Assembly (NCBI GenBank): GCA_035710515.1
Contig: DASTDE010000001.1
Span: 1,159,087-1,223,086, forward strand
Reading direction: 5' to 3'
Origin: Candidatus Rubrimentiphilum sp.
GTDB lineage: Bacteria; Vulcanimicrobiota; Vulcanimicrobiia; Vulcanimicrobiales; Vulcanimicrobiaceae
Length of the DNA: 64,000 nucleotides
Shown: piece by piece, positions 1,967 through 11,856 of the stretch
Layout: every line of letters starts with the position of its first letter
Position numbering within the stretch: the first letter of the stretch is position 1
Made by a program: the position numbers and the translations under genes
Notes under the pieces: model-generated
What the model was told of the DNA's origin: nothing
The model's database searches: none
The model's input: only the letters and a program-made list of their open reading frames with translations

Positions 1967-3811
1967 GTGCAACCCATTCGCGTGCAGCGCGCCCAGACGT
2001 ACCCTTCGTCGTCGCTCGCGTTCGACTGGATCATGGCCGTACTCGCAGTCATCCTGATGAGCGGCGTTATTCAGGACGGATGGGCGCACAGCCACGGCTT
2101 GGTGGACCAGAACTTTTTCACACCGTGGCACGCGATTCTTTATGCGACAATGGCGCTGAACGGAATCGTGCTCGGAACGGTCGCCGTGGTCAATCTTCGG
2201 CGCGGTCACACCGCACGTTATGCGCTTCCGTTCGGATACTGGATGTCGCTCGCGGGCGTCATCGTGTTCGCAACGGGCGGAGCGTTCGATCTTCTGTGGC
2301 ACTTCCGTTACGGAGTCGAAACGGACATCAATGCACTGATCAGTCCATCGCACTTGTGGCTGGCGACGGGCGGAGCGCTGATCTTCGCCGGACCGCTCCG
2401 ATCGATCGCGGCACGGTACGGCCCGAGCGAGGGCGGCTGGAGAATAACCGGGCCGGCGATTCTTAGCGCGCTTGCCATATTAACGCTGATTGGATTCTTC
2501 ACGCAGTACGCGCAACCGATCGCTTCGCCGGACGAAGCCGACATCATCGGCCAACATGAAGCGCAGAACGGCGGCGCGTTGTACTCGGTGCGCAGCAACG
2601 GTGCGCAGGAATCGCGCCTACTCGCCATTCCCGGCGCCGACATTTGGGGGACGGCCGTATCGCCGGATGGTAAGCATGTCGCATACCGCGTTGCCCTCGC
2701 TCGCGATCCGCGTTCAGACATCTATGTGGCGAACGTTGACGGAACGGGTGCGCGGCGCATCACGCACAGTGGACGCCACGACACGCAACCGGCCTGGTCA
2801 CCCGACGGCGCGCGCATTGCGTTCATATCGATCCCCGCCGGGACATCCGGAAATTATCTCCTGCAAACGATCCGGCCCGACGGCGAAGGCCTTCACACTA
2901 TTCTGAGCAGCGTAACAGAGATGCAGTTCCCCACGTGGTCTCCGCTCGGCGATCTGATCGCGTATCAATCGCGAAACGGTTTGCACCAGCAGCTGGCGAT
3001 AGTGCCCGTGCACGGCGGGCCGCCGAAGTGGCTCGATGGTACTGTCGACGGCACGCAGCCGGCTTGGTCGCCTAAGAATCAGATCGCATTCGTGAATGCC
3101 GACGACAACATCGTTACCGGAGTCACTCAAATACTCGTGCGCGGCGGCCAATGGCCGGCCTGGTCACGAGACGCTAAACGCCTTGCGTTTGTGCGCCAAG
3201 CCGGGGGCGCCGCTCAGGTCTTCGTCCGAGATACCCGAGGACACGAGACGAACGTTTCACAGCTCGCCGGCTTGAACGCATCGCGGCCTTCCTGGACGCC
3301 TAGCGGTCTGCTTTTCACCGCAACCGGCCGCCCCGATCCCGCAACCACATTCATCGGATTCGCTTACAGCGAAGACGCGAACCTGATCGAATCGATCGCC
3401 GTCACCGGGATTTGCCTATTATTGATTCGCCGCTGGCGCATGCCAATCGGCGCGATGACCTTTTTGCTTGGCCTGTTTGCGATTGCGATGGCCTTCCAAA
3501 GCAATCTGTTTTGGGAGATCCTCGCCGCGATCGCAGCCGGCATGCTCGCGGACGTCGCAATTCAGCTTCTCGGCGAGCGCGCTCGCAGCGGCTTTGGCTT
3601 CTATGCCCTCGGATTCGCTGTCCCGGCCGTGCTCTTTACACTCTATCTGATTGTCGCGAAGCTTACGCTTCCGGGCGGCCTTGGTTGGCCGCCGAACATG
3701 ATTTTCGGATCGCCGATTATCGCCGGGTTCGTGGGGATGCTGGTCGCGTTTTGCTTCGCGCCGCCCCTGCGCTCTCCGGAAGATCATGCGAGAAACACGT
3801 CCATTTTCTAA
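1967..3811 (+). CDS. Polytopic membrane protein with inserted six-blade TolB/PD40-like propeller
   Basis: A 614-residue protein in three parts. Residues 18-180 form about five membrane helices. Residues 195-455 hold six WD40-like (PD40) blades, each with a motif such as VSPDGKHVAY, AWSPDGARIAFI, TWSPLGDLIAY or AWSRDAKRLAFV. Residues 470-610 form about five more helices. The membrane parts align end to end with the 340-residue protein at 9357-10379, which lacks the propeller. Residues shared by both include D37, H55, D108-x3-H112 and H129 in SPSH. The start is GTG at 1967; an ATG at 2033 would cut into the conserved FDW segment. The blades resemble the TolB propeller, suggesting a periplasmic binding module. 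Function is unknown. The 3' end overlaps the convergent gene ending at 3717. Confidence 0.82.
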   Translation: MQPIRVQRAQTYPSSSLAFDWIMAVLAVILMSGVIQDGWAHSHGLVDQNFFTPWHAILYATMALNGIVLGTVAVVNLRRGHTARYALPFGYWMSLAGVIVFATGGAFDLLWHFRYGVETDINALISPSHLWLATGGALIFAGPLRSIAARYGPSEGGWRITGPAILSALAILTLIGFFTQYAQPIASPDEADIIGQHEAQNGGALYSVRSNGAQESRLLAIPGADIWGTAVSPDGKHVAYRVALARDPRSDIYVANVDGTGARRITHSGRHDTQPAWSPDGARIAFISIPAGTSGNYLLQTIRPDGEGLHTILSSVTEMQFPTWSPLGDLIAYQSRNGLHQQLAIVPVHGGPPKWLDGTVDGTQPAWSPKNQIAFVNADDNIVTGVTQILVRGGQWPAWSRDAKRLAFVRQAGGAAQVFVRDTRGHETNVSQLAGLNASRPSWTPSGLLFTATGRPDPATTFIGFAYSEDANLIESIAVTGICLLLIRRWRMPIGAMTFLLGLFAIAMAFQSNLFWEILAAIAAGMLADVAIQLLGERARSGFGFYALGFAVPAVLFTLYLIVAKLTLPGGLGWPPNMIFGSPIIAGFVGMLVAFCFAPPLRSPEDHARNTSIF

Positions 3812-4241
3812 TCCCCGCCGGCTTGAGCCTGAGGACCAGAGCTTTTAGCTCTTGCGACGTTAATTGTTTCGGCATGATGTGAAAGTGAAGATCGCCCGGC
3901 GGATCAATCTGCTGTATCGGCGCCTCCGTAGCGACGCTGGATAGAAGTGACTCTTCACCTTCGTAGGTGATAAACCAAAGTGCACCTTCCCGCGTTTTTG
4001 TTACGATAGCCACCGGTTGCGGTCTCGCAACATCTGTCACGAACGCCGTGATATTAACAACGGTCGTGCCGACCTCGCTGTTCGGCGGAGTGTTCGAGGT
4101 TCCAAGCGCCATATACGGGTCGAAACACTGAGCGCCCACGACTGGGGGTCTGTACTCGACCAACCCGTAGGTTCTGTTGAGCTTCGCCTCCGACGAGCAG
4201 CCGCTCAGCATGAATGCGACAGCTGCAAAAGCAGCGCGCAT
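3717..4241 (-). CDS. Putative lipoprotein, third of three tandem secreted proteins
   Basis: A 174-residue protein starting MRAAFAAVAFMLSGCSSEAK, a short type II signal peptide with lipobox LSGC. The longer upstream extension of this frame has no signal logic, so I start at 4241. The mature part has a cysteine near its start (AQCFDPY) and another near KWTC, and a segment AIVTKTREGALWFITYEG that resembles the VAVVxxxDGxxVGxxY stretch of the two genes upstream (4253 and 4648); it may be a divergent third copy. The last 30 residues overlap the end of the convergent membrane-protein gene and look low-quality (basic, Ser/Pro-rich). Function is unknown. Confidence 0.65.
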   Translation of the reverse strand: MRAAFAAVAFMLSGCSSEAKLNRTYGLVEYRPPVVGAQCFDPYMALGTSNTPPNSEVGTTVVNITAFVTDVARPQPVAIVTKTREGALWFITYEGEESLLSSVATEAPIQQIDPPGDLHFHIMPKQLTSQELKALVLRLKPAGIRKWTCFSHDLPESAGAARSKTRPASPRTRR

Positions 4242-4252
4242 CGTACTCGTTT

Positions 4253-4654
4253 TCAGGTGCTGCACGGAGCAACTTTGAAGCCGCTGGGAAGGCCCTTCAT
4301 GACAAAGAATGGTCCGGCGTTCCATCTTCCGCCGATCTTGCTTTGGCCGAAAGCTTTGAAGACGTCCGTGCCATCGCTCCGGCTGAGCATGGCGCTAGCA
4401 AATCCGCCGTCGTCGAGGTAAAGCCAGCCGACCGACGTTCCATCCGTTTTCTGGAGTTGCGTGACAGCAACGACGGAACGCGTGCTGCGTTTCCCATGCA
4501 AGATGGTTTCACCGATATTGTCCCACACTGCCAGGGGACTCCCTCCGCAAATGGCCCGCGCACTAGCCAGAGCTGGTTGCCAAATGGCAACGCCGGCTAG
4601 TAATGATGCGACCGCCAGGACAGCGGCGAAACGTGCAGCGATTGCGACTAACAT
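4253..4654 (-). CDS. Small secreted protein, second of three tandem paralogs
   Basis: A 133-residue protein with an N-terminal signal segment (MLVAIAARFAAVLAVASLLA to about residue 30), then a domain of about 100 residues beginning ICGGSPLAV and ending FKVAPC. It aligns with the preceding gene product: C-x-G-x-PL, SVVAVxxxxDGTSVGWLY, then a closing Cys. One Cys at each end suggests a single disulfide. The ATG at 4654 overlaps the stop of the upstream gene by 7 nt, which implies translational coupling. The long in-frame extension above 4654 is antisense-like and was discarded. No known family recognised. Confidence 0.65.
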   Translation of the reverse strand: MLVAIAARFAAVLAVASLLAGVAIWQPALASARAICGGSPLAVWDNIGETILHGKRSTRSVVAVTQLQKTDGTSVGWLYLDDGGFASAMLSRSDGTDVFKAFGQSKIGGRWNAGPFFVMKGLPSGFKVAPCST

Positions 4655-5013
4655 ACAATAACGAGTAAGTCGCGCCACGGATTGGCTCGAATAGGCACAA
4701 CCGCCGAATAGCGGTAGCTTTCGCCGGTCTTGTGATCCGGCAAGGCTTGGGTTACGCCGGCCGCGCGCTGATCCGTAAGTGGCATGCCGGAACGCGCCTG
4801 AGCGTACAACCTGTTCGTCTTTGACCGATAGATGAAGCCAACCGTGTCCGGGCCGTCTTTTGCCGCAACAACTGCTTTCACGCGTTCGATTCTGCCGCCC
4901 CTTGGGATAAAAGGGTCGCCAATCGATAATGGAGCTCCGACGCAATTCGACGGCGGTCTCGACGTAGCGGTTGGGGTTAGTGCCAAGAAAAGAAAAAGCG
5001 AACTAATCATCAT
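4648..5013 (-). CDS. Small secreted protein, first of three tandem paralogs
   Basis: A 121-residue protein with a signal peptide (MMISSLFLFLALTPTATS) and a mature domain running from NCVGAPLSIGD to LLVIVC. It is similar to the next gene product in the same order of elements: Cys-Gly-x-Pro-Leu, an RVKAVVAAKDGPDTVGFIY strand pair, a basic Gly/Trp loop and a terminal Cys. Together with 4253-4654 and 3717-4241 it forms a probable operon of envelope or secreted proteins. Start ATG at 5013; the prepilin gene is divergent. Confidence 0.65.
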   Translation of the reverse strand: MMISSLFLFLALTPTATSRPPSNCVGAPLSIGDPFIPRGGRIERVKAVVAAKDGPDTVGFIYRSKTNRLYAQARSGMPLTDQRAAGVTQALPDHKTGESYRYSAVVPIRANPWRDLLVIVC

Positions 5014-5070
5014 CGACGCCCTTAGTCGTTGCGGCGGACCGGACCTATCCTAGGCACGCGATCCTTCAAC

Positions 5071-5568
5071 ATGGGCACTTGGCCATTCATGAAATCCCAG
5101 GCGGGATTCGCCTTACTTGAGGTTTTGGCCGTGATCGGCATCTTCGCGGTCTGCGCCGGGACGTTAATTCTTGCGATTTCCGGTTTCGCGAAGTTCGGAT
5201 CGCACGCGGTCGGACGAAATCACGCGGCAGCTCTGGTGTTTGCGGAACAAACCTTGCGCGTCGCCGAGAACGCGTGGAAGTATGGAACGCCGGGAGCCGC
5301 GCCTAGCGGTAGCGCGCAAGTGGCCATCCCGGTTGCCGTTCCCAGTTCGGCTCCGACCACAATTCCCGTAACCGTTACGAGCACGTTGTCGAATGCAAGC
5401 TCGACCGGCGCGACGATCGCCGTGACGGTCCTGTACACACCCGACCCCGAGCATCCCGGCGATTCGGGAATCGTTACGCTCAACGGAACACTCAATGTGA
5501 AAGCACCGCTTCCGGGCGCGCAAGTCCAGCGGCCCGGGTTTGTAGCTCAGCCTCAAGGCGGGCCATAG
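5071..5568 (+). CDS. Type IV prepilin-like protein
   Basis: A class III (prepilin peptidase) leader is present: MGTWPFMKSQAG followed by FALLEVLAVIGIFAVCAGTL, that is a Gly before the cleavage point, Phe+1 and Glu+5, then one hydrophobic helix. The rest is Ser/Thr/Pro-rich beta-type sequence with no recognised domain; about 166 residues in total. The product would be processed by PilD/GspO and join a pilus or pseudopilus. The ATG at 5071 is preferred over an in-frame TTG at 5029; ATG at 5089 would give a shorter leader and is equally possible. It abuts the next gene without spacing. Confidence 0.75.
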   Translation: MGTWPFMKSQAGFALLEVLAVIGIFAVCAGTLILAISGFAKFGSHAVGRNHAAALVFAEQTLRVAENAWKYGTPGAAPSGSAQVAIPVAVPSSAPTTIPVTVTSTLSNASSTGATIAVTVLYTPDPEHPGDSGIVTLNGTLNVKAPLPGAQVQRPGFVAQPQGGP

Positions 5569-6213
5569 ATGCTGGTCAACGCGCTGGTCTGCGTCGCGCT
5601 CATCGCGTTGGCCGCGACCACAATACTCAGCGCAGGCCTGGTTACAACGCGCGTTTCCGTTCATCGTTTGGCGCAGACCTACTTAAGCCAAGGGTATCAA
5701 CGCGCTGTCGACACCTTGGAGACAAACATCGCGGCCTACGCGCAAGCCGGATCGATTCCGAGCCCATTGCCTACGTTTACGCCTCTCCCACCGCTGTGCG
5801 CCGATGCGAATCCACCCTGCGCGTTTACGAGCACGGCCACGATCACACTCTCTCGCGGCAATGCTACCGCAAGCAACCAAGAAGCGAACGCCTACGTCGC
5901 CGAAGACCGCCTCGCCGCACATATTTCGGTGGCAGTGCGAGCCCCGGATGGAACGCTTTTAGCGACGCGCGATAACGATCTGACGCTTCGCACGATGCTC
6001 TCACCTCCATATGTCGCGATCGCCGGAGCGCGAGACGCGACGTTCGACGACGTCGCATTCGGCAATCTTGTCGGCGATGACGGCGGCAAGCCGCCGGCCA
6101 CGGCGAATCCGTGCGCAGCGGGAGCGGCGGGAAGCTCAGACGATACCGTCGTGCGCGTCGCCTACAAGAACGCGCAAACCGGTGCTTGCACCGACGGGAG
6201 CAGTTGGCGCTAG
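5569..6213 (+). CDS. Minor pilin/pilus-assembly-like membrane-anchored protein
   Basis: The ATG at 5569 immediately follows the stop of the prepilin gene. The 214-residue product has one N-terminal helix (MLVNALVCVALIALAATTIL) and a large, probably extracytoplasmic domain with paired cysteines (LCADANPPCAF; NPCAAG and TGACTDG). The single-anchor architecture and position next to a prepilin suggest a PilX/PilV-like or minor pseudopilin partner, but the leader lacks a clear G|FxxxE site, so it may not be processed. Function is inferred from context. Confidence 0.6.
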   Translation: MLVNALVCVALIALAATTILSAGLVTTRVSVHRLAQTYLSQGYQRAVDTLETNIAAYAQAGSIPSPLPTFTPLPPLCADANPPCAFTSTATITLSRGNATASNQEANAYVAEDRLAAHISVAVRAPDGTLLATRDNDLTLRTMLSPPYVAIAGARDATFDDVAFGNLVGDDGGKPPATANPCAAGAAGSSDDTVVRVAYKNAQTGACTDGSSWR

Positions 6214-6246
6214 GAGCTTTTACGCGCATCCGGTAGAGGTCGAACG

Positions 6247-7164
6247 GTGTCCACCCGCCGTCTGCTCTATCCGGGCCTGATTTTTGTCGCTTTTTCTTGG
6301 GCGCTCAATACCGTGCTCATGAAGTATGCGATAAAGACGGTGGACCCGCTCGCGTTTACGGGCCTGCGCTTTCTGGCAATGACGCCGCTGGCGTTCTTGC
6401 TGGCGGCAGCGATGCACCAAACGGTTCGCATTCGTCTAAAAGATCTGCCGCTGCTCATCGCGTGCGGCGCGTGCGGTTACGGCATCTACCAATACCTGTG
6501 GGTGCTCGGCTTGGCGAACACGAGCGCGTTCGCGTCGTCGCTGTTTGCAAGCCTGTCGCCCGTCCTGACGCTGGCCATCGTGGCGTTCAGCGGACAGGAG
6601 CGCGTTCACACCGGCCGCTGGCTGGGCGCCGCGATCGCGCTCTTCGGTGTAGCGGTATTCGAAGGCGCCTTTGCCGGCCACTTGACGTTTCATCTGGGCG
6701 ACCTGCTAACGTTCGGAGCGTCGCTCGTCTTCGCGGTTTTCAACGTTCTCAGCGCGAAATTGCTGGGCCGTTACACGCCGCTCGGGCTCGTCGTGATCAC
6801 GATGACGATCGGAACGCTCATCATTTTGCCGGGAGCCCTACCGCATATTCTCCATCAGAATTTCCGTGGACTACCCGCGGCCGATTATGCGGTCTTCGCG
6901 TACTCCATTATCTTTCCAATCGTTTTGACGTTCCCGGTCTGGAGCTGGGGCATTTCTGTCTTGGGAGCCGGCCGGGCGTCGCTCTTTCAGTTCGGTGCAC
7001 CGGTTCTGGCCGGATTGCTCTCCGTGGCGATTCTGCGCAATCACATCGAGGTGCATCAGATTGTCGGAACCGCGATCACCATCGGCGGCATGGCCTTCTC
7101 ACAACTGCTCGGAAAGTTTTCGATCACGGACATCTGGGCCGAACGGACCGTCTCCCTGAAATAG
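6247..7164 (+). CDS. EamA-family (DMT superfamily) transporter
   Basis: A 305-residue protein with ten predicted helices arranged as two EamA repeats (about residues 8-140 and 150-290). Family features are visible: ALNTVLMKYAIK in the first helix, GLRFLAMTPLAF, a helix-helix repeat ending HIEVHQIVGTAITIGGM, and an alanine/glycine-rich core. DMT members export amino acids, nucleotides or other metabolites; the substrate cannot be read from the sequence. The start is GTG at 6247. Confidence 0.85.
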   Translation: MSTRRLLYPGLIFVAFSWALNTVLMKYAIKTVDPLAFTGLRFLAMTPLAFLLAAAMHQTVRIRLKDLPLLIACGACGYGIYQYLWVLGLANTSAFASSLFASLSPVLTLAIVAFSGQERVHTGRWLGAAIALFGVAVFEGAFAGHLTFHLGDLLTFGASLVFAVFNVLSAKLLGRYTPLGLVVITMTIGTLIILPGALPHILHQNFRGLPAADYAVFAYSIIFPIVLTFPVWSWGISVLGAGRASLFQFGAPVLAGLLSVAILRNHIEVHQIVGTAITIGGMAFSQLLGKFSITDIWAERTVSLK

Positions 7165-7197
7165 GGCCGCGGACATGCCTCTCGAAGGTGCACGGTC

Positions 7198-7392
7198 GTG
7201 AAGCGTAGCCTCTGGTATTGGCTTCTCCTGGTGCCGTTCGTCGCCACACTCGTGCCGCCGCTCTACGCGCACGCCGCCCCGGCACTCTTCGGCTTTCCGT
7301 TCTTCTACTGGTACCAGATGCTGTGGATCGTGCTCTCGGCGTTGATCGTCTGGATCGTGTACGCCGCCACGCGAGAGCCCGGCAATGACTAG
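7198..7392 (+). CDS. DUF3311 small two-helix membrane protein
   Basis: A 64-residue protein with two hydrophobic helices (residues 5-20 and 38-57) and the DUF3311 pattern VPxxxxxxPP, then FGFPFFYWYQMLW. Such proteins sit upstream of SSS-family symporters and are thought to be an accessory subunit, like YhdT beside PanF. Here its 3' end overlaps the symporter start by 8 nt. A paralogous module lies at 14767-16415. The start is GTG at 7198. Confidence 0.85.
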   Translation: MKRSLWYWLLLVPFVATLVPPLYAHAAPALFGFPFFYWYQMLWIVLSALIVWIVYAATREPGND

Positions 7393-8893
7393 CGGCACCA
7401 TTATCTTCGTCGTGCTGGTGCTCGGCGTCGCGGTGCTGGGATTCTTGGCGGCGCGCTGGGGACGCGCCAATCTCTCGTCACTCGACGAGTGGGCGCTGGG
7501 CGGACGCCGCTTCGGTACGATTGTGTCGTGGTTCTTGCTCGGCGGCGATCTGTATACAGCCTACACGTTTATCGCTGTCCCGGCACTCGCGTTTGGCGCA
7601 GGCGCGCTCGCATTCTTCGCTGTGCCGTACACGACAATTGCCTATCCGCTCGCATTTTTGATCATGGCGCGCTTTTGGACGATCGCAAAGCGGCGCGGCT
7701 ACGTTACGACCGCAGACTTCGTGCACGACCGTTTCGGTAGCCGTCCGTTGGAACTAGCAGTCGCGGTAACCGGCGTGCTGGCGACCATGCCATACATCGC
7801 GCTGCAGCTGATCGGCGTGCAAGTAATTCTCGAACGTTCCGGTATTGCGCCAACCCACGGCTCGGCCGTGCTGATGCTCGTCATTGCGTTCGTGCTGCTC
7901 GCCGCCTATACGTTTACCAGCGGCCTGCGCGCGCCGGCGATGATCGCCTTTGTCAAAGACACACTGATTTATCTAACGGTCATTGTCGCCATCATCGTAA
8001 TTCCTCGAAGCCTGGGCGGCTGGGGCCATGTCTTCGCGTTGGCGCAAGCCGCGCTCGCCGCCAATCCCAAACCCGGCTCGACGATCCTTTCGCCAAATCT
8101 GTACTTCGCGTACTCATCGCTGGCGCTAGGATCGGCGCTGGCGCTCTTCATCTATCCGCATTCAATCACCAGCGTGCTCAGCGCGCGCAGCGCAAACGTC
8201 ATCCGGCGCAACTGCGCGCTGCTGCCGCTCTACAGCATACTTCTTACGCTGATTGCGCTGCTCGGCTACTGCGCGCTGGCAGCGCAGATCCGCCTGACCA
8301 ATGCAAATTTTGCCATCCCGGACTTGTTCGCGCGCTTCTTCCCGAATTGGTTCGCCGGCGTCGCCTTTGCGGCGATTGTCATCGGTGCCCTGGTGCCCGC
8401 GGCGATTATGGCGATCGGCGCCGCGAATCTTTTCGCGAGCAACATCCTGCAGACGTTCCAAACGCGCCAGACGCGGCCGCCAATCGAAACTAATATCGCA
8501 CGCATCCTTGCGCTGTTCGTGCTGGCCGGCGGCTTGGCGATCGCGCTGTTAATCAAGCCGCTCAATGCGATCGAATTCCAACTGTTGGGCGGAGCTTGGA
8601 TCGTGCAGATCTTTCCCGCGGTTATCCTAGCGCTCTACACGCGCTGGTTCCACCGGAACGCATTGCTGGTCGGCTGGGCTGTCGGGCTGGCGGCGGCGGC
8701 GTGGATGGCCTATGCTACAGGCTTCGCGACCACAATCTTCCCGCTGCACATCGGCACGTTCACGCTGCCGGGATACATCGCGTTTTATGCGCTACTGCTG
8801 AACCTTGCAGTTACGGCCGCGTTTACCGCGCTCTTCAATGCGCTCAAGACCGATCGCGGAGCCGATTTGACGACCGCGGCCGATTACGCTTAG
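7385..8893 (+). CDS. Sodium:solute symporter (SSS family)
   Basis: A 502-residue polytopic protein with about 13 helices. SSS hallmarks visible: an early DEWALGGRRFGTIVSWFLLG (substrate and Na+ site region), KRRGYVTTADFVHDRFGSRP, ALQLIGVQVILE, and the FxYPHSITSVLSARSANVIRRN segment. It should couple import of an organic solute to Na+ entry across the inner membrane. The closest architecture is the pantothenate/monocarboxylate-type branch that is paired with DUF3311 proteins, but the substrate is unknown. The start overlaps the DUF3311 gene by 8 nt, implying coupled translation. It ends 4 nt inside the convergent lipoprotein gene. Confidence 0.9.
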   Translation: MTSGTIIFVVLVLGVAVLGFLAARWGRANLSSLDEWALGGRRFGTIVSWFLLGGDLYTAYTFIAVPALAFGAGALAFFAVPYTTIAYPLAFLIMARFWTIAKRRGYVTTADFVHDRFGSRPLELAVAVTGVLATMPYIALQLIGVQVILERSGIAPTHGSAVLMLVIAFVLLAAYTFTSGLRAPAMIAFVKDTLIYLTVIVAIIVIPRSLGGWGHVFALAQAALAANPKPGSTILSPNLYFAYSSLALGSALALFIYPHSITSVLSARSANVIRRNCALLPLYSILLTLIALLGYCALAAQIRLTNANFAIPDLFARFFPNWFAGVAFAAIVIGALVPAAIMAIGAANLFASNILQTFQTRQTRPPIETNIARILALFVLAGGLAIALLIKPLNAIEFQLLGGAWIVQIFPAVILALYTRWFHRNALLVGWAVGLAAAAWMAYATGFATTIFPLHIGTFTLPGYIAFYALLLNLAVTAAFTALFNALKTDRGADLTTAADYA

Positions 8894-9312
8894 CGAAAGA
8901 TCAGCTGCACCGTACGAGTGTCGGTGCTGTCATTTGCGGTGCGCGCGACGATAGATGCTTCAAAACCGCGGCGGTAGATCGATGGAATGGCCAGAACGTG
9001 CGTACGAAAAGCGAACTGACCGTACGACGAACGATGCAGGATGAACGAAAACGACGGCGAGCGCATCTCGACGACCGCGACGTTCGTTGTAGTCGCGACC
9101 TTGCCGGACCACCAGCTATCCGGATGAATAACGTCAGAAGAAATTTCCGCGGCCAGGATGCGCGGCGGATCGTTCGGCGCTGCGACTGCGGCCTGCGGCC
9201 ATGGGGTCACGGCGCCAATCACAACGCCTTGCGACGAGCCGTTTTCCTGCGCCGGCTCGCACGCCGCCAAGAGCGCGCAGAGCGGCACAATAGTTAAAGC
9301 AAAAGCACGCAT
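8890..9312 (-). CDS. Putative lipoprotein
   Basis: Starts MRAFALTIVPLCALLAACEP, with lipobox LAAC at residues 16-19, then about 120 residues of mostly beta-type sequence containing PDSWWSGKV and a C-terminal FEASIVARTAND strand. It looks like a single small immunoglobulin-like or beta-sandwich domain, but no family is recognised. The upstream in-frame extension is highly basic and was excluded. It is divergent from the membrane protein at 9357, 44 bp away. Confidence 0.65.
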   Translation of the reverse strand: MRAFALTIVPLCALLAACEPAQENGSSQGVVIGAVTPWPQAAVAAPNDPPRILAAEISSDVIHPDSWWSGKVATTTNVAVVEMRSPSFSFILHRSSYGQFAFRTHVLAIPSIYRRGFEASIVARTANDSTDTRTVQLIFR

Positions 9313-9356
9313 CGAGCTGCGCAGGTTCGAACCGCGGCGATGAGAACCCTGGACTC

Positions 9357-10379
9357 TTGAGACGGTTCGACTGGGCGATGGCGATCGCCGGATTCTGGAG
9401 CGTCGCGGGGCTTTATGTCGACGCCGGCTGGCACATACGCCACGACGTCGATACATTCTTTACGTGGGCGCACGCGCTGCTGTATTCAGGGCTGCTGCTG
9501 CTGCTTGGTCTGCTGGCTACGAAATATTTTATCGCGCGTCGCGCCGGCGACCGCGATTTTCGATCGGCCTTCGGCCCGGCGTACGCGTGGTCTGCGATTG
9601 GTGCCATCGTGTTTCTGCTGGGCGGTATCGCCGACATGATCAACCATCTGTTTTTTGGCTTCGAAGCCGGCTTTAACGCGCTGCTAAGCCCGACGCACCA
9701 GATCATCGGAGCGGGCGTGTTGTTGATTATCTCCGGTCCGATTCGCTCGGCGGCTGCGCGGCCGGTGCGGCCCCAATCGCTGGTGACGCAGGTTCCGTTG
9801 ATTATCTCCGCAGCCGCCGTCCTCGAATTAATGCACTGGGGAACGCAGGTTTTCTTCCGGTTCGATGCGGCCCGTGCGCTGGGCGTCACCGTTCCGCACG
9901 AGCTGGGCGAAAACACCTTCACGCTCATGACGCTCCACTTCTATCAGCAAGGCGGGTCGCTGATTGCCGTCATCTTACAGAGCCTACTGATGATGGGCAC
10001 CGCGTTCTATCTCGTACGTACCTTCGCGCTGCGCCCTGGCGCGCTGACTACGCTTTTTGTGCTGGGCAACGGATTGATCGCCATTACGCACTCCCTTTCG
10101 TGGGTTGATGCAGCCTCCGCACTCTTTGCCAGCGTCGCGGCAGGCGCGGCGGGCGATGCGTTTTTGATGGGAGCGCCTCTTACGGCATCGCGCGTTCGGT
10201 TTCGCGCATTCGCATTTGCGGTGCCGGCCGTTTACACGGCGGCCGCGCTGCTCTTTACGATCGTTCTTATGGGCGGCACGTGGTGGGATCCGATTTTTGC
10301 GACGGGCGCGGTTTTTTACTCCGGACTGTTTTCGGTGCTCTTGAGTTTTGTCGCCACGGCGTCACCGCCGAGTGGATAA
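9357..10379 (+). CDS. Polytopic multi-histidine membrane protein, paralog of 1967-3811
   Basis: A 340-residue protein with about ten helices and no soluble domain. It aligns throughout with the membrane parts of the 614-residue protein at 1967-3811: RFDWAMA / AFDWIMA, FFTWAHALLY / FFTPWHAILY, D93-x3-H97 / D108-x3-H112, NALLSPTH / NALISPSH, SGPIRSAAAR / AGPLRSIAAR, and FAFAVPAV / LGFAVPAV near the end. The point where the propeller is inserted corresponds to about residues 168-190 here. Shared acidic and histidine residues on helices suggest a metal, heme or proton site. The start is TTG at 9357, supported by conservation of FDW; ATG at 9378 would lose it. It overlaps the downstream glycosyltransferase gene. 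Confidence 0.8.
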   Translation: MRRFDWAMAIAGFWSVAGLYVDAGWHIRHDVDTFFTWAHALLYSGLLLLLGLLATKYFIARRAGDRDFRSAFGPAYAWSAIGAIVFLLGGIADMINHLFFGFEAGFNALLSPTHQIIGAGVLLIISGPIRSAAARPVRPQSLVTQVPLIISAAAVLELMHWGTQVFFRFDAARALGVTVPHELGENTFTLMTLHFYQQGGSLIAVILQSLLMMGTAFYLVRTFALRPGALTTLFVLGNGLIAITHSLSWVDAASALFASVAAGAAGDAFLMGAPLTASRVRFRAFAFAVPAVYTAAALLFTIVLMGGTWWDPIFATGAVFYSGLFSVLLSFVATASPPSG

Positions 10380-11856
10380 GCGCTTCGCAACGACTCTGGG
10401 CGCGCTGACCGCGCTCGCGCACGTCGCGGTTTCGTGGCGCTACGGCTACTATCGCGACGAACTGTACTTTATCGCCGCAGCCAAACGGCTGGCATGGGGC
10501 TATGTTGACATGCCGCCGCTGACCGCGTTTGTCTCGTGGCTGGCGGCGCCTGCACACTACAACCTGGTCGCGCTTCGCCTCACCGTTGCGATCGCCGCGG
10601 GGCTCACGGTCTATCTGGCGTGCGCGATTGCTGCGGAACTTGGCGGAGGCGCCCTCGCGCAACGGCTCTCGGGGTTTACCGTCGCGCTGACGCCCGCCTA
10701 TTTATTTCTCGGCAGTACGCTGACAACAACGTCCTACGAGCCGCTGACGTGGGCGCTGACGATCTACGGAACAATTCGGCTCGTTTGCTCGCGCGATTCG
10801 CGGTGGTGGACTGTGATCGCTGCGGCGGTTACGTTCGGTTTGTACGGGAAATACTCGATGCTGTTGCTCGTGGCTGCCTTGCTCTTCGGGCTACTGCTTA
10901 CGCCCGAGCGCGCGATTCTTCGAACGCGCGGTCTTGCGTTTGCGGCGCTCGCCGTCACCGTTCTTCTTCTGCCGAACATCGTGTGGCAGGCCGTGCACGG
11001 ATGGCCGATGCTTGAGGTCTTGCGCGGCGACGTCCTAGGCCGACATGCATTCAACTCGGGCCTGCAGTTCGAGTTTCGCGCACCGCTTGTGAATGCCGGC
11101 GCGTTTCTCGTCGAACAGGTGCTCTTCACCAACCCATTCGCGGCTCCAGTATGGATCTTAGGGGTTATTGCCTTGTTGCGCAGCCGCGAATTCCGAAGCA
11201 TGCGATTAATCGGCATCGCCTTTGTTGCGATGCTCATCGCCGCCGCGCTGCTCAATGCGAAGGGCTATTACATCGCGGGAATCTACACGCCGTTGATCTG
11301 CGCGGGATGGGTCGCGCTCGAACGCGTCTGGGCCGCGCGGCCGGCGTGGCGGTCAGCGGCCGCTGCGTTGGTAGTCGCATCCGGCGTAGCCCTCGCGCCC
11401 TTTACGTTTCCAATCCTACCGCCGGTCGGATTAATCGCTTACCAGCCGCTTTTCGCGGACGAATTCGGGTGGGACGGCTTAACCCAGCACGTCGCGGAGA
11501 TTTATCTGCAGCTTCCCACGGCTCAGCGGGAACGCACGGCGATTTTCTCCGACACGTACGCGGGCGCCGCAGCGATGGAGTTTTACGGACCGCAATACGG
11601 ATTACCGCAGCCGATCAGCGCGCAAAACAGCTATTATCTGTGGGGGACGGGCGGTTACGACGGAAGTTCGATGCTGGCGATCGGCGCGTCACAAGCCGAT
11701 CTCCTCCGCGCGAATTTTCGCCACGTCGTCTTGCTCACGACGTTTCAGGATCCGCACCGCTGGGCAATCGAAGGGCCGACGCCGATCTTCCTCTGCACGG
11801 ATCCCATCGCGCCGCTATCGCGCTTATGGCCGCGGTTTAAATGGTATGGGGCTTAG
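10372..11856 (+). CDS. Glycosyltransferase family 39-type membrane protein (ArnT/PMT fold)
   Basis: About 494 residues with some 11 helices. The first periplasmic loop carries YGYYRDELYFIAAAKRLAWG, the acidic Asp-Glu motif of the GT-C fold (PMT/ArnT, Pfam PMT_2 type), followed by DMPPLT. Such enzymes transfer a sugar from a polyprenyl-phosphate donor to protein or lipid on the outer face of the inner membrane; the acceptor cannot be inferred. The GTG at 10372 overlaps the upstream stop by 8 nt; TTG at 10348 is an alternative. The 3' end overlaps the convergent TMEM175-type gene by 20 nt. Confidence 0.8.
   Translation: MDKRFATTLGALTALAHVAVSWRYGYYRDELYFIAAAKRLAWGYVDMPPLTAFVSWLAAPAHYNLVALRLTVAIAAGLTVYLACAIAAELGGGALAQRLSGFTVALTPAYLFLGSTLTTTSYEPLTWALTIYGTIRLVCSRDSRWWTVIAAAVTFGLYGKYSMLLLVAALLFGLLLTPERAILRTRGLAFAALAVTVLLLPNIVWQAVHGWPMLEVLRGDVLGRHAFNSGLQFEFRAPLVNAGAFLVEQVLFTNPFAAPVWILGVIALLRSREFRSMRLIGIAFVAMLIAAALLNAKGYYIAGIYTPLICAGWVALERVWAARPAWRSAAAALVVASGVALAPFTFPILPPVGLIAYQPLFADEFGWDGLTQHVAEIYLQLPTAQRERTAIFSDTYAGAAAMEFYGPQYGLPQPISAQNSYYLWGTGGYDGSSMLAIGASQADLLRANFRHVVLLTTFQDPHRWAIEGPTPIFLCTDPIAPLSRLWPRFKWYGA

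Follow-up and report, generated by a model that had tools for sequence, protein, structure and literature searches.

The roles of the copper sites of PmoC and the origin of the copper membrane monooxygenases are long-standing and disputed questions, and these enzymes are hard to test because they form large complexes whose activity is lost on isolation. In PmoC, the CuC site is formed by Asp156, His160 and His173 and the CuD site by Asn227, His231 and His245 (PMC11194816; PMC12576850). Here we describe two membrane proteins, P0001 and P0002, encoded in a window of 64,000 nucleotides (the whole stretch of DNA analyzed) from Candidatus Rubrimentiphilum sp., contig DASTDE010000001.1, an uncultivated soil bacterium of the Eremiobacterota. 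Sequence comparison indicates that they represent an undescribed family, which shares the putative copper-binding core of PmoC/AmoC but is not accompanied by the other parts of those enzymes.

P0001 (positions 1967-3811, GTG start, 614 amino acids) and P0002 (9357-10379, TTG start, 340 amino acids) are open reading frames (ORFs) on the plus strand, which also carries the parts of P0001 and P0002 given below. The family profile matches both halves of P0001, and P0002 has relatives in Eremiobacterota and on plasmids of Actinomycetota, Deinococcota and Bacillota. Both ORFs agree with a sequence-only reading made beforehand from the letters of the window, which had proposed that the two proteins are paralogs aligned along their membrane parts. 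This was borne out by BLASTP, with E-values of 7e-17 for the N-terminal membrane half, where the alignment extends beyond about residue 182 into the propeller and has no meaning there, and of 3e-8 for the C-terminal membrane half. Furthermore, the motifs named in that reading were recovered in the alignment as FDW, FFTxxHAxLY, D-x3-H, SP(S/T)H, GPxRS and FAVPAV. AlphaFold2 predicted ten transmembrane helices in both proteins, and the two predicted layouts agree, so the predicted helix topologies do not differ. The observation as a whole is confirmed, and its interpretation is partly supported. Searches of the 2.5 Mb source genome yielded P0001 and P0002 as the only family members.

In detail, helices 1-5 of P0001 are encoded at 2015-2509 (AlphaFold2 helices at residues 17-181; family profile E 5e-56), the first four of them forming the PmoC-like core, and helices 6-10 at 3350-3754 (AlphaFold2 with low confidence; BLASTP to P0002 3e-8; profile E 2e-23). 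The corresponding core of P0002, helices 1-4, lies at 9360-9758 and was delimited by AlphaFold2 and by alignment of the family with PmoC.

As the motifs had directed the comparison to PmoC from the outset, open tests were run, namely searches across the PDB, hhalign, HMMER, searches of ORF sets and an analysis of residue spacing. The sequences of PmoC, AmoC and HmoC used for comparison came from viral contigs and plasmids, and their identity was checked with PDB chains. A profile of 38 diverse family members (A7) gave 14 matches at E<=10 among 177,635 distinct PDB sequences; all of these were PmoC/AmoC, the best with an E-value of 0.0041, and a PmoC profile returned the same 14 chains. The earlier profile A1, from before the actinobacterial subfamily was added, gave no match to the PDB sequences at E<=10, and the A7 result therefore depends on the breadth of the family. 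The same trend is seen in hhalign comparisons of the family with PmoC, where the probability was 54% for A1, 87% for enlarged sets and 91% with a P-value of 1.3e-6 for A7. In 150 block-shuffles, the maximum score was 27.2 against a real score of 40.1, and 34.7 against 43.8 with the enlarged sets, which are near-equivalent to A7.

HMMER searches of PmoC-bearing records with A7 found PmoC/HmoC/AmoC in 11 of 11, and the sole other match was a family member. With A1, PmoC was recovered from 5 of 15 records of this kind and also from the Mycolicibacterium plasmid. Among 12,251 ORFs from the loci examined, which served as decoys, A1 had 60 weak matches (57 PmoC, two family members or pieces thereof and one chance match), and the weak matches of the PmoC profile outside PmoC were one PmoC fragment and four family members with a best family E-value of 0.011; these counts are not independent because the decoy set is enriched in PmoC. 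Taken together, we regard the homology of the four-helix core to PmoC as established at the level of sequence.

The likeness is centered on six Asp and His residues, which align one for one with the CuC and CuD ligands of PmoC. In P0002, whose numbering is used for conserved residues unless stated otherwise, the CuC-like site consists of D22, H26 and H39 (9420-9473) and the CuD-like site of D93, H97 and H114 (9633-9698). D93 follows D22 by 71 residues, an offset common to P0002 and most PmoC. The corresponding invariant columns of P0001 are D37, H41 and H55 (2075-2131), aligned with PmoC D156/H160/H173, and D108, H112 and H129 (2288-2353), aligned with N227/H231/H245. The first D-x3-H (D22/H26 in P0002, D37/H41 in P0001) had been overlooked in the sequence-only reading, and there are therefore two D-x3-H...H motifs with four His and two Asp, all of them invariant. 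As for the spacing, the CuC-like motif of P0002 has the D-x3-H-x12-H of PmoC, and x13 is found in P0001. The CuD-like motif is D-x3-H-x16-H in P0002 and most members and D-x3-H-x13-H in the actinobacterial members, a subfamily that reproduces both PmoC spacings, x12 and x13, exactly and in addition carries an RD(S/T) motif like the RDT of PmoC. Throughout the family the first position of CuD is Asp, where PmoC has Asn.

All six residues were kept in 84 of 87 ORF rows taken from the loci examined, some of which overlap or share a genome; D22 was present in all 87, and Y43, E103 and P112 are also conserved. The three exceptions are overlapping copies of a single histidine kinase of Candidatus Chlorohelix, which has D, R, L, E, Y and R at the six positions, that is, the first Asp is kept and the other five conserved residues are lost. 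Such a joint loss is what one expects for residues that form a shared site. The kinase itself (L044:5956-10077) carries the membrane core of the family together with a propeller at its N terminus.

The suggestion of the sequence-only reading that the conserved Asp and His residues serve metal, heme or proton chemistry is well supported for a metal through the match to the CuC and CuD ligands, and nothing points to heme or protons in particular. Its statement that the family is not a recognizable one holds for single-protein scans of Pfam and NCBIfam and fails for profile searches, which reveal a distant relative of the well-studied PmoC. Searches of the membrane part as a single protein against Pfam, NCBIfam, PHROGs and the PDB returned nothing useful. 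Cytochrome b561, steroid dehydrogenase, presenilin and DUF3413, which appeared in Pfam as weak, scattered matches below threshold, were rejected as identities.

Within the family, helices 1-2 align with helices 3-4 (93%, P 2.7e-7), and repeat 1 of the family aligns with repeat 1 of PmoC (90%), whereas a comparison of the two halves of PmoC with each other revealed no significant internal repeat (P 0.1). Since the family halves align and the first repeat matches that of PmoC, these comparisons suggest a common origin of CuC and CuD in a single hairpin that was duplicated.

The proteins share with PmoC/AmoC/HmoC the four-helix core, two D/N-x3-H...H motifs about 71 residues apart, the TP-x-H and P-x-H motifs and an intervening Glu. 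They differ from them in lacking the N-terminal helix pair of PmoC and in having six additional C-terminal helices, as well as in the Asp of CuD, in the x16 spacing of most members, in the missing match to Pfam AmoC and in the fact that no PmoA or PmoB was found in the genome. Because of these differences the family should not be filed as PmoC. No description of distant PmoC relatives was found in the open-access literature, which leaves other papers possible.

The second feature that distinguishes P0001 is a TolB-like beta-propeller between helices 5 and 6 (2576-3328; AlphaFold2 strands at residues 204-454), which was recognized by PD40 and TolB hidden Markov models and by Foldseek and is predicted to lie outside. 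It matches PD40 in the Pfam scan at 5e-17 and TolB (TIGR02800) at 1.5e-30 with 106.5 bits, a score far under the cut-off of 343 bits. Foldseek returned TolB structures at an E-value of 1e-11 and the bare TolB-like propeller 2ojh with a template modeling score of 0.71 by target length. The insert is thus like TolB and 2ojh in its predicted fold and its PD40 repeats, and it differs from TolB in its score below the cut-off, its position in a membrane protein and the lack of the N-terminal domain of TolB. At the insertion place, P0002 has an outer loop that connects helices 5 and 6 (9855-9959, from AlphaFold2 and the alignment). The sequence-only reading had correctly seen a propeller here, but the short loop that it described in P0002 comprises about 35 residues and is not very short.

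Classed by the measured length of the insertion, the propeller forms show a net insertion of 251 amino acids in P0001 and 251-270 amino acids in relatives, at a constant place. A tree calculated from profile positions 1-165 contains one propeller clade of Eremiobacterota (support 0.97) with one short member inside. As the Chlorohelix kinase is placed unreliably in this tree, the propeller was gained either once or twice. Members near the propeller clade (L225:3847-5274 and L234) have a 31-residue insertion or none and are possible remnants or sister forms. The extra domain varies between lineages: Eremiobacterota and Chlorohelix have a TolB-like propeller, Chlorohelix also has a histidine kinase, and the actinobacterial members end in a soluble domain. 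The idea of an exchangeable extra domain put forward in the sequence-only reading is well supported by this variation.

Counted over the loops, Lys and Arg residues number 14 on the inner side and 3 on the outer side. From this distribution in one sequence and its model, we infer that both conserved sites and the insertion are located on the outer face of the membrane.

The genes next to other family members often have a link to copper. In one Eremiobacterota locus (L237), two members are immediately followed by genes for CopC-CopD and a multicopper oxidase, with YcnI (DUF1775) upstream, and in a second one (L236) a member is surrounded by CopC-CopD, YcnI/DUF1775, an Nramp gene and SCO1 genes. 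CopC was found near members in three genomes, and because all of them belong to one genus, this proximity probably reflects one ancestral linkage. On plasmids, multicopper oxidase genes lie near members in Rhodococcus, Arthrobacter, Leifsonia and Streptomyces, and genes for heavy-metal ATPases in Deinococcus aetherius, there with a heavy-metal-associated (HMA) protein, Leifsonia and Streptomyces; cupredoxins, which are among the neighbors in Leifsonia and Streptomyces, or HMA proteins are also found near some plasmid members. No classical copper gene stands beside the members of D. deserti, D. taeanensis, Paenibacillus and Nonomuraea. In the latter two, the member is followed by a gene whose family is also present in L236, where it is weakly YtkA-like. 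A protein of L236 that weakly resembles YtkA (L236:5322-6215) is secreted and has an FLHVHP motif, and similar stretches occur on 202 plasmids, 90 of them from Staphylococcus.

The family itself differs from CopC and CopD in that neither PF05425 nor PF04234 matched any of 32 members; its likeness to CopC-CopD/YcnJ and YcnI consists in the neighborhood of some members and, likely, in a common extracytoplasmic handling of copper (PMC13344008 on YcnJ and YcnI). YcnJ, which combines domains of CopC, CopD and YtkA type, provides respiratory oxidases with copper (PMC13344008).

In the window, a gene for a small lipoprotein is divergent from the P0002 gene (8890-9312, minus strand; start at an internal ATG and lipobox LLAAC, from ORF 8890-9456). 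This small lipoprotein is found beside members in seven loci, and in the related genome L236 its domain is fused to SCO1/SenC (PF02630; L236:347-1402). The link to SCO1, a copper chaperone, consists in this fusion, and the membrane proteins themselves are not relatives of SCO1. The source genome contains two SCO1 and two COX1 genes.

Considering these findings, we assume that the family comprises stand-alone PmoC-like proteins with ten helices, of which the first four correspond by homology to the core that binds copper in PmoC/AmoC. This core would be a duplicated hairpin D-x3-H-xn-P-x-H with two sites, one like CuC and one like CuD, at the cytoplasmic membrane on its outer face; the propeller, when present, is inserted between helices 5 and 6 and would lie on this side as well. 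The proteins may bind copper at this face for extracytoplasmic trafficking or to help assemble copper enzymes, for example heme-copper oxidases, and the propeller or the neighboring lipoprotein would act as a docking or partner domain. A support of copper enzymes has a parallel in YcnJ (PMC13344008) and would suit a genome in which COX1 and SCO1 are each encoded twice. Copper binding follows from the homology as a strong inference, whereas the further step to trafficking depends on the neighbors and is the weakest. As a whole, we consider this reading to be probable.

Several findings weigh against it. Pfam AmoC (PF04896) was unmatched in 32 members and had no match in the source genome at E<=10. 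A Foldseek search of the PDB and BFVD with the whole 340-amino-acid model returned no PmoC and no match at E<0.3 and so did not confirm the fold; as its alignments cover the full length of the chain, a core of four helices could escape it. In the CuD-like site, Asp replaces the Asn of PmoC, and most members have x16 instead of x13. The confidence of the AlphaFold2 models, calculated from 14 sequences, is moderate: the predicted local distance difference test (pLDDT) and the predicted template modeling score (pTM) were 79.5 and 0.83 for P0002 and 72.6 and 0.50 for P0001, in which helices 6-10 are poor. Outside Eremiobacterota, the copper context comes from plasmids, where metal islands are frequent anyway. 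Finally, no classical copper gene adjoins the genes of P0001 or P0002, and in other Eremiobacterota no conserved neighbors of the propeller-type genes were found.

As an alternative, the proteins could work on their own as copper oxygenases or oxidases, whose PmoC-like sites activate O2 and oxidize a substrate without PmoA and PmoB. The ligand positions of CuD, the site where current work places methane hydroxylation (PMC11194816), are conserved in the family, and since the propeller-type copies are located outside copper gene clusters, they give no sign of serving homeostasis alone. On the other hand, the Asn of CuD is replaced by Asp, the context, where present, is one of copper homeostasis and not a catabolic operon, and no conserved gene for a donor or a substrate pathway was seen beside the family. 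Furthermore, PmoA and PmoB (PF02461, PF04744) were unmatched in the source genome, in a search with weak positive controls in which PF04744 rang in no control genome. We therefore consider an oxygenase or oxidase unlikely. In a broader version of this idea, PmoC would be part of a far older and larger superfamily of copper membrane proteins that stand alone and arose by duplication of one D-x3-H...P-x-H hairpin. Some of them, including P0001 and P0002, would be complete copper oxygenases or oxidases that need neither PmoA nor PmoB, and the propeller would bind the substrate or a partner; we hold this to be unlikely as well.

A role as membrane sensor, in which the membrane core or the propeller detects copper or another ligand and signals to a partner, would fit the fusion of membrane core and propeller to a histidine kinase in Chlorohelix and the Rhodococcus members, which adjoin a two-component system and a cyclase-YHS protein. 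The latter is a nucleotide cyclase fused to a YHS domain, encoded directly downstream of the Rhodococcus member (L039:9158-9808). However, the kinase fusion lacks five of the six conserved residues, and the other members have neither an output domain nor a conserved regulator alongside; we consider a role as sensor improbable.

Sites composed of one Asp and two His can also hold zinc or iron. It is conceivable that another metal, or proton or heme chemistry, is served by the conserved Asp and His residues and that the relation to PmoC is structural only, and the Asp in place of the Asn of CuD would be compatible with this. The homology is concentrated on the ligand motifs, copper-specific neighbors (CopC, YcnI, SCO1 and multicopper oxidase) occur in several lineages and no heme-binding motif was seen, and such an exchange of chemistry seems distinctly improbable. 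That the resemblance arose by chance or by convergence of short D-x3-H motifs is very improbable, although a motif had prompted the comparison and the best single PDB E-value is no lower than 0.004, as the later open search found 14 PmoC/AmoC chains and no other family, A7 recovered PmoC/HmoC/AmoC in all 11 records, shuffled profiles scored lower and the spacings match, in one subfamily exactly.

The family is widespread and combines both copper-site motifs of PmoC in one polypeptide without the other subunits, so the sites could be studied on their own. It further suggests that the core originated by an internal duplication, which is undetectable in PmoC alone, and that the copper site may predate the oxygenase. 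In addition, the comparison gives an initial hint at the function of many proteins of Eremiobacterota, Actinomycetota, Deinococcota and Bacillota that lack annotation.

Among named records, the nearest relatives are those of Candidatus Eremiobacterota genomes, and the family profile detected members in 83 of the 149 Eremiobacterota genomes searched, with up to four per genome. Relatives on plasmids were found in Rhodococcus, Deinococcus, Arthrobacter, Paenibacillus and Nonomuraea. A divergent subfamily, found via a plasmid of Mycolicibacterium chubuense, is present in Mycolicibacterium, Streptomyces and Leifsonia; its members (L331:6590-8059, L332-L335) have a C-terminal soluble domain, are located in copper islands of plasmids and have no Pfam match. 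No relatives were found in a phage collection or, in a search with the alignment, in viral contigs. Genes similar to pmoC/amoC themselves are present on at least 80 IMG/VR contigs (L048-L127, L244-L323). In the window, the P0002 gene is followed downstream by a PMT_2 glycosyltransferase gene (10348-11856), a position that is kept in eight loci.

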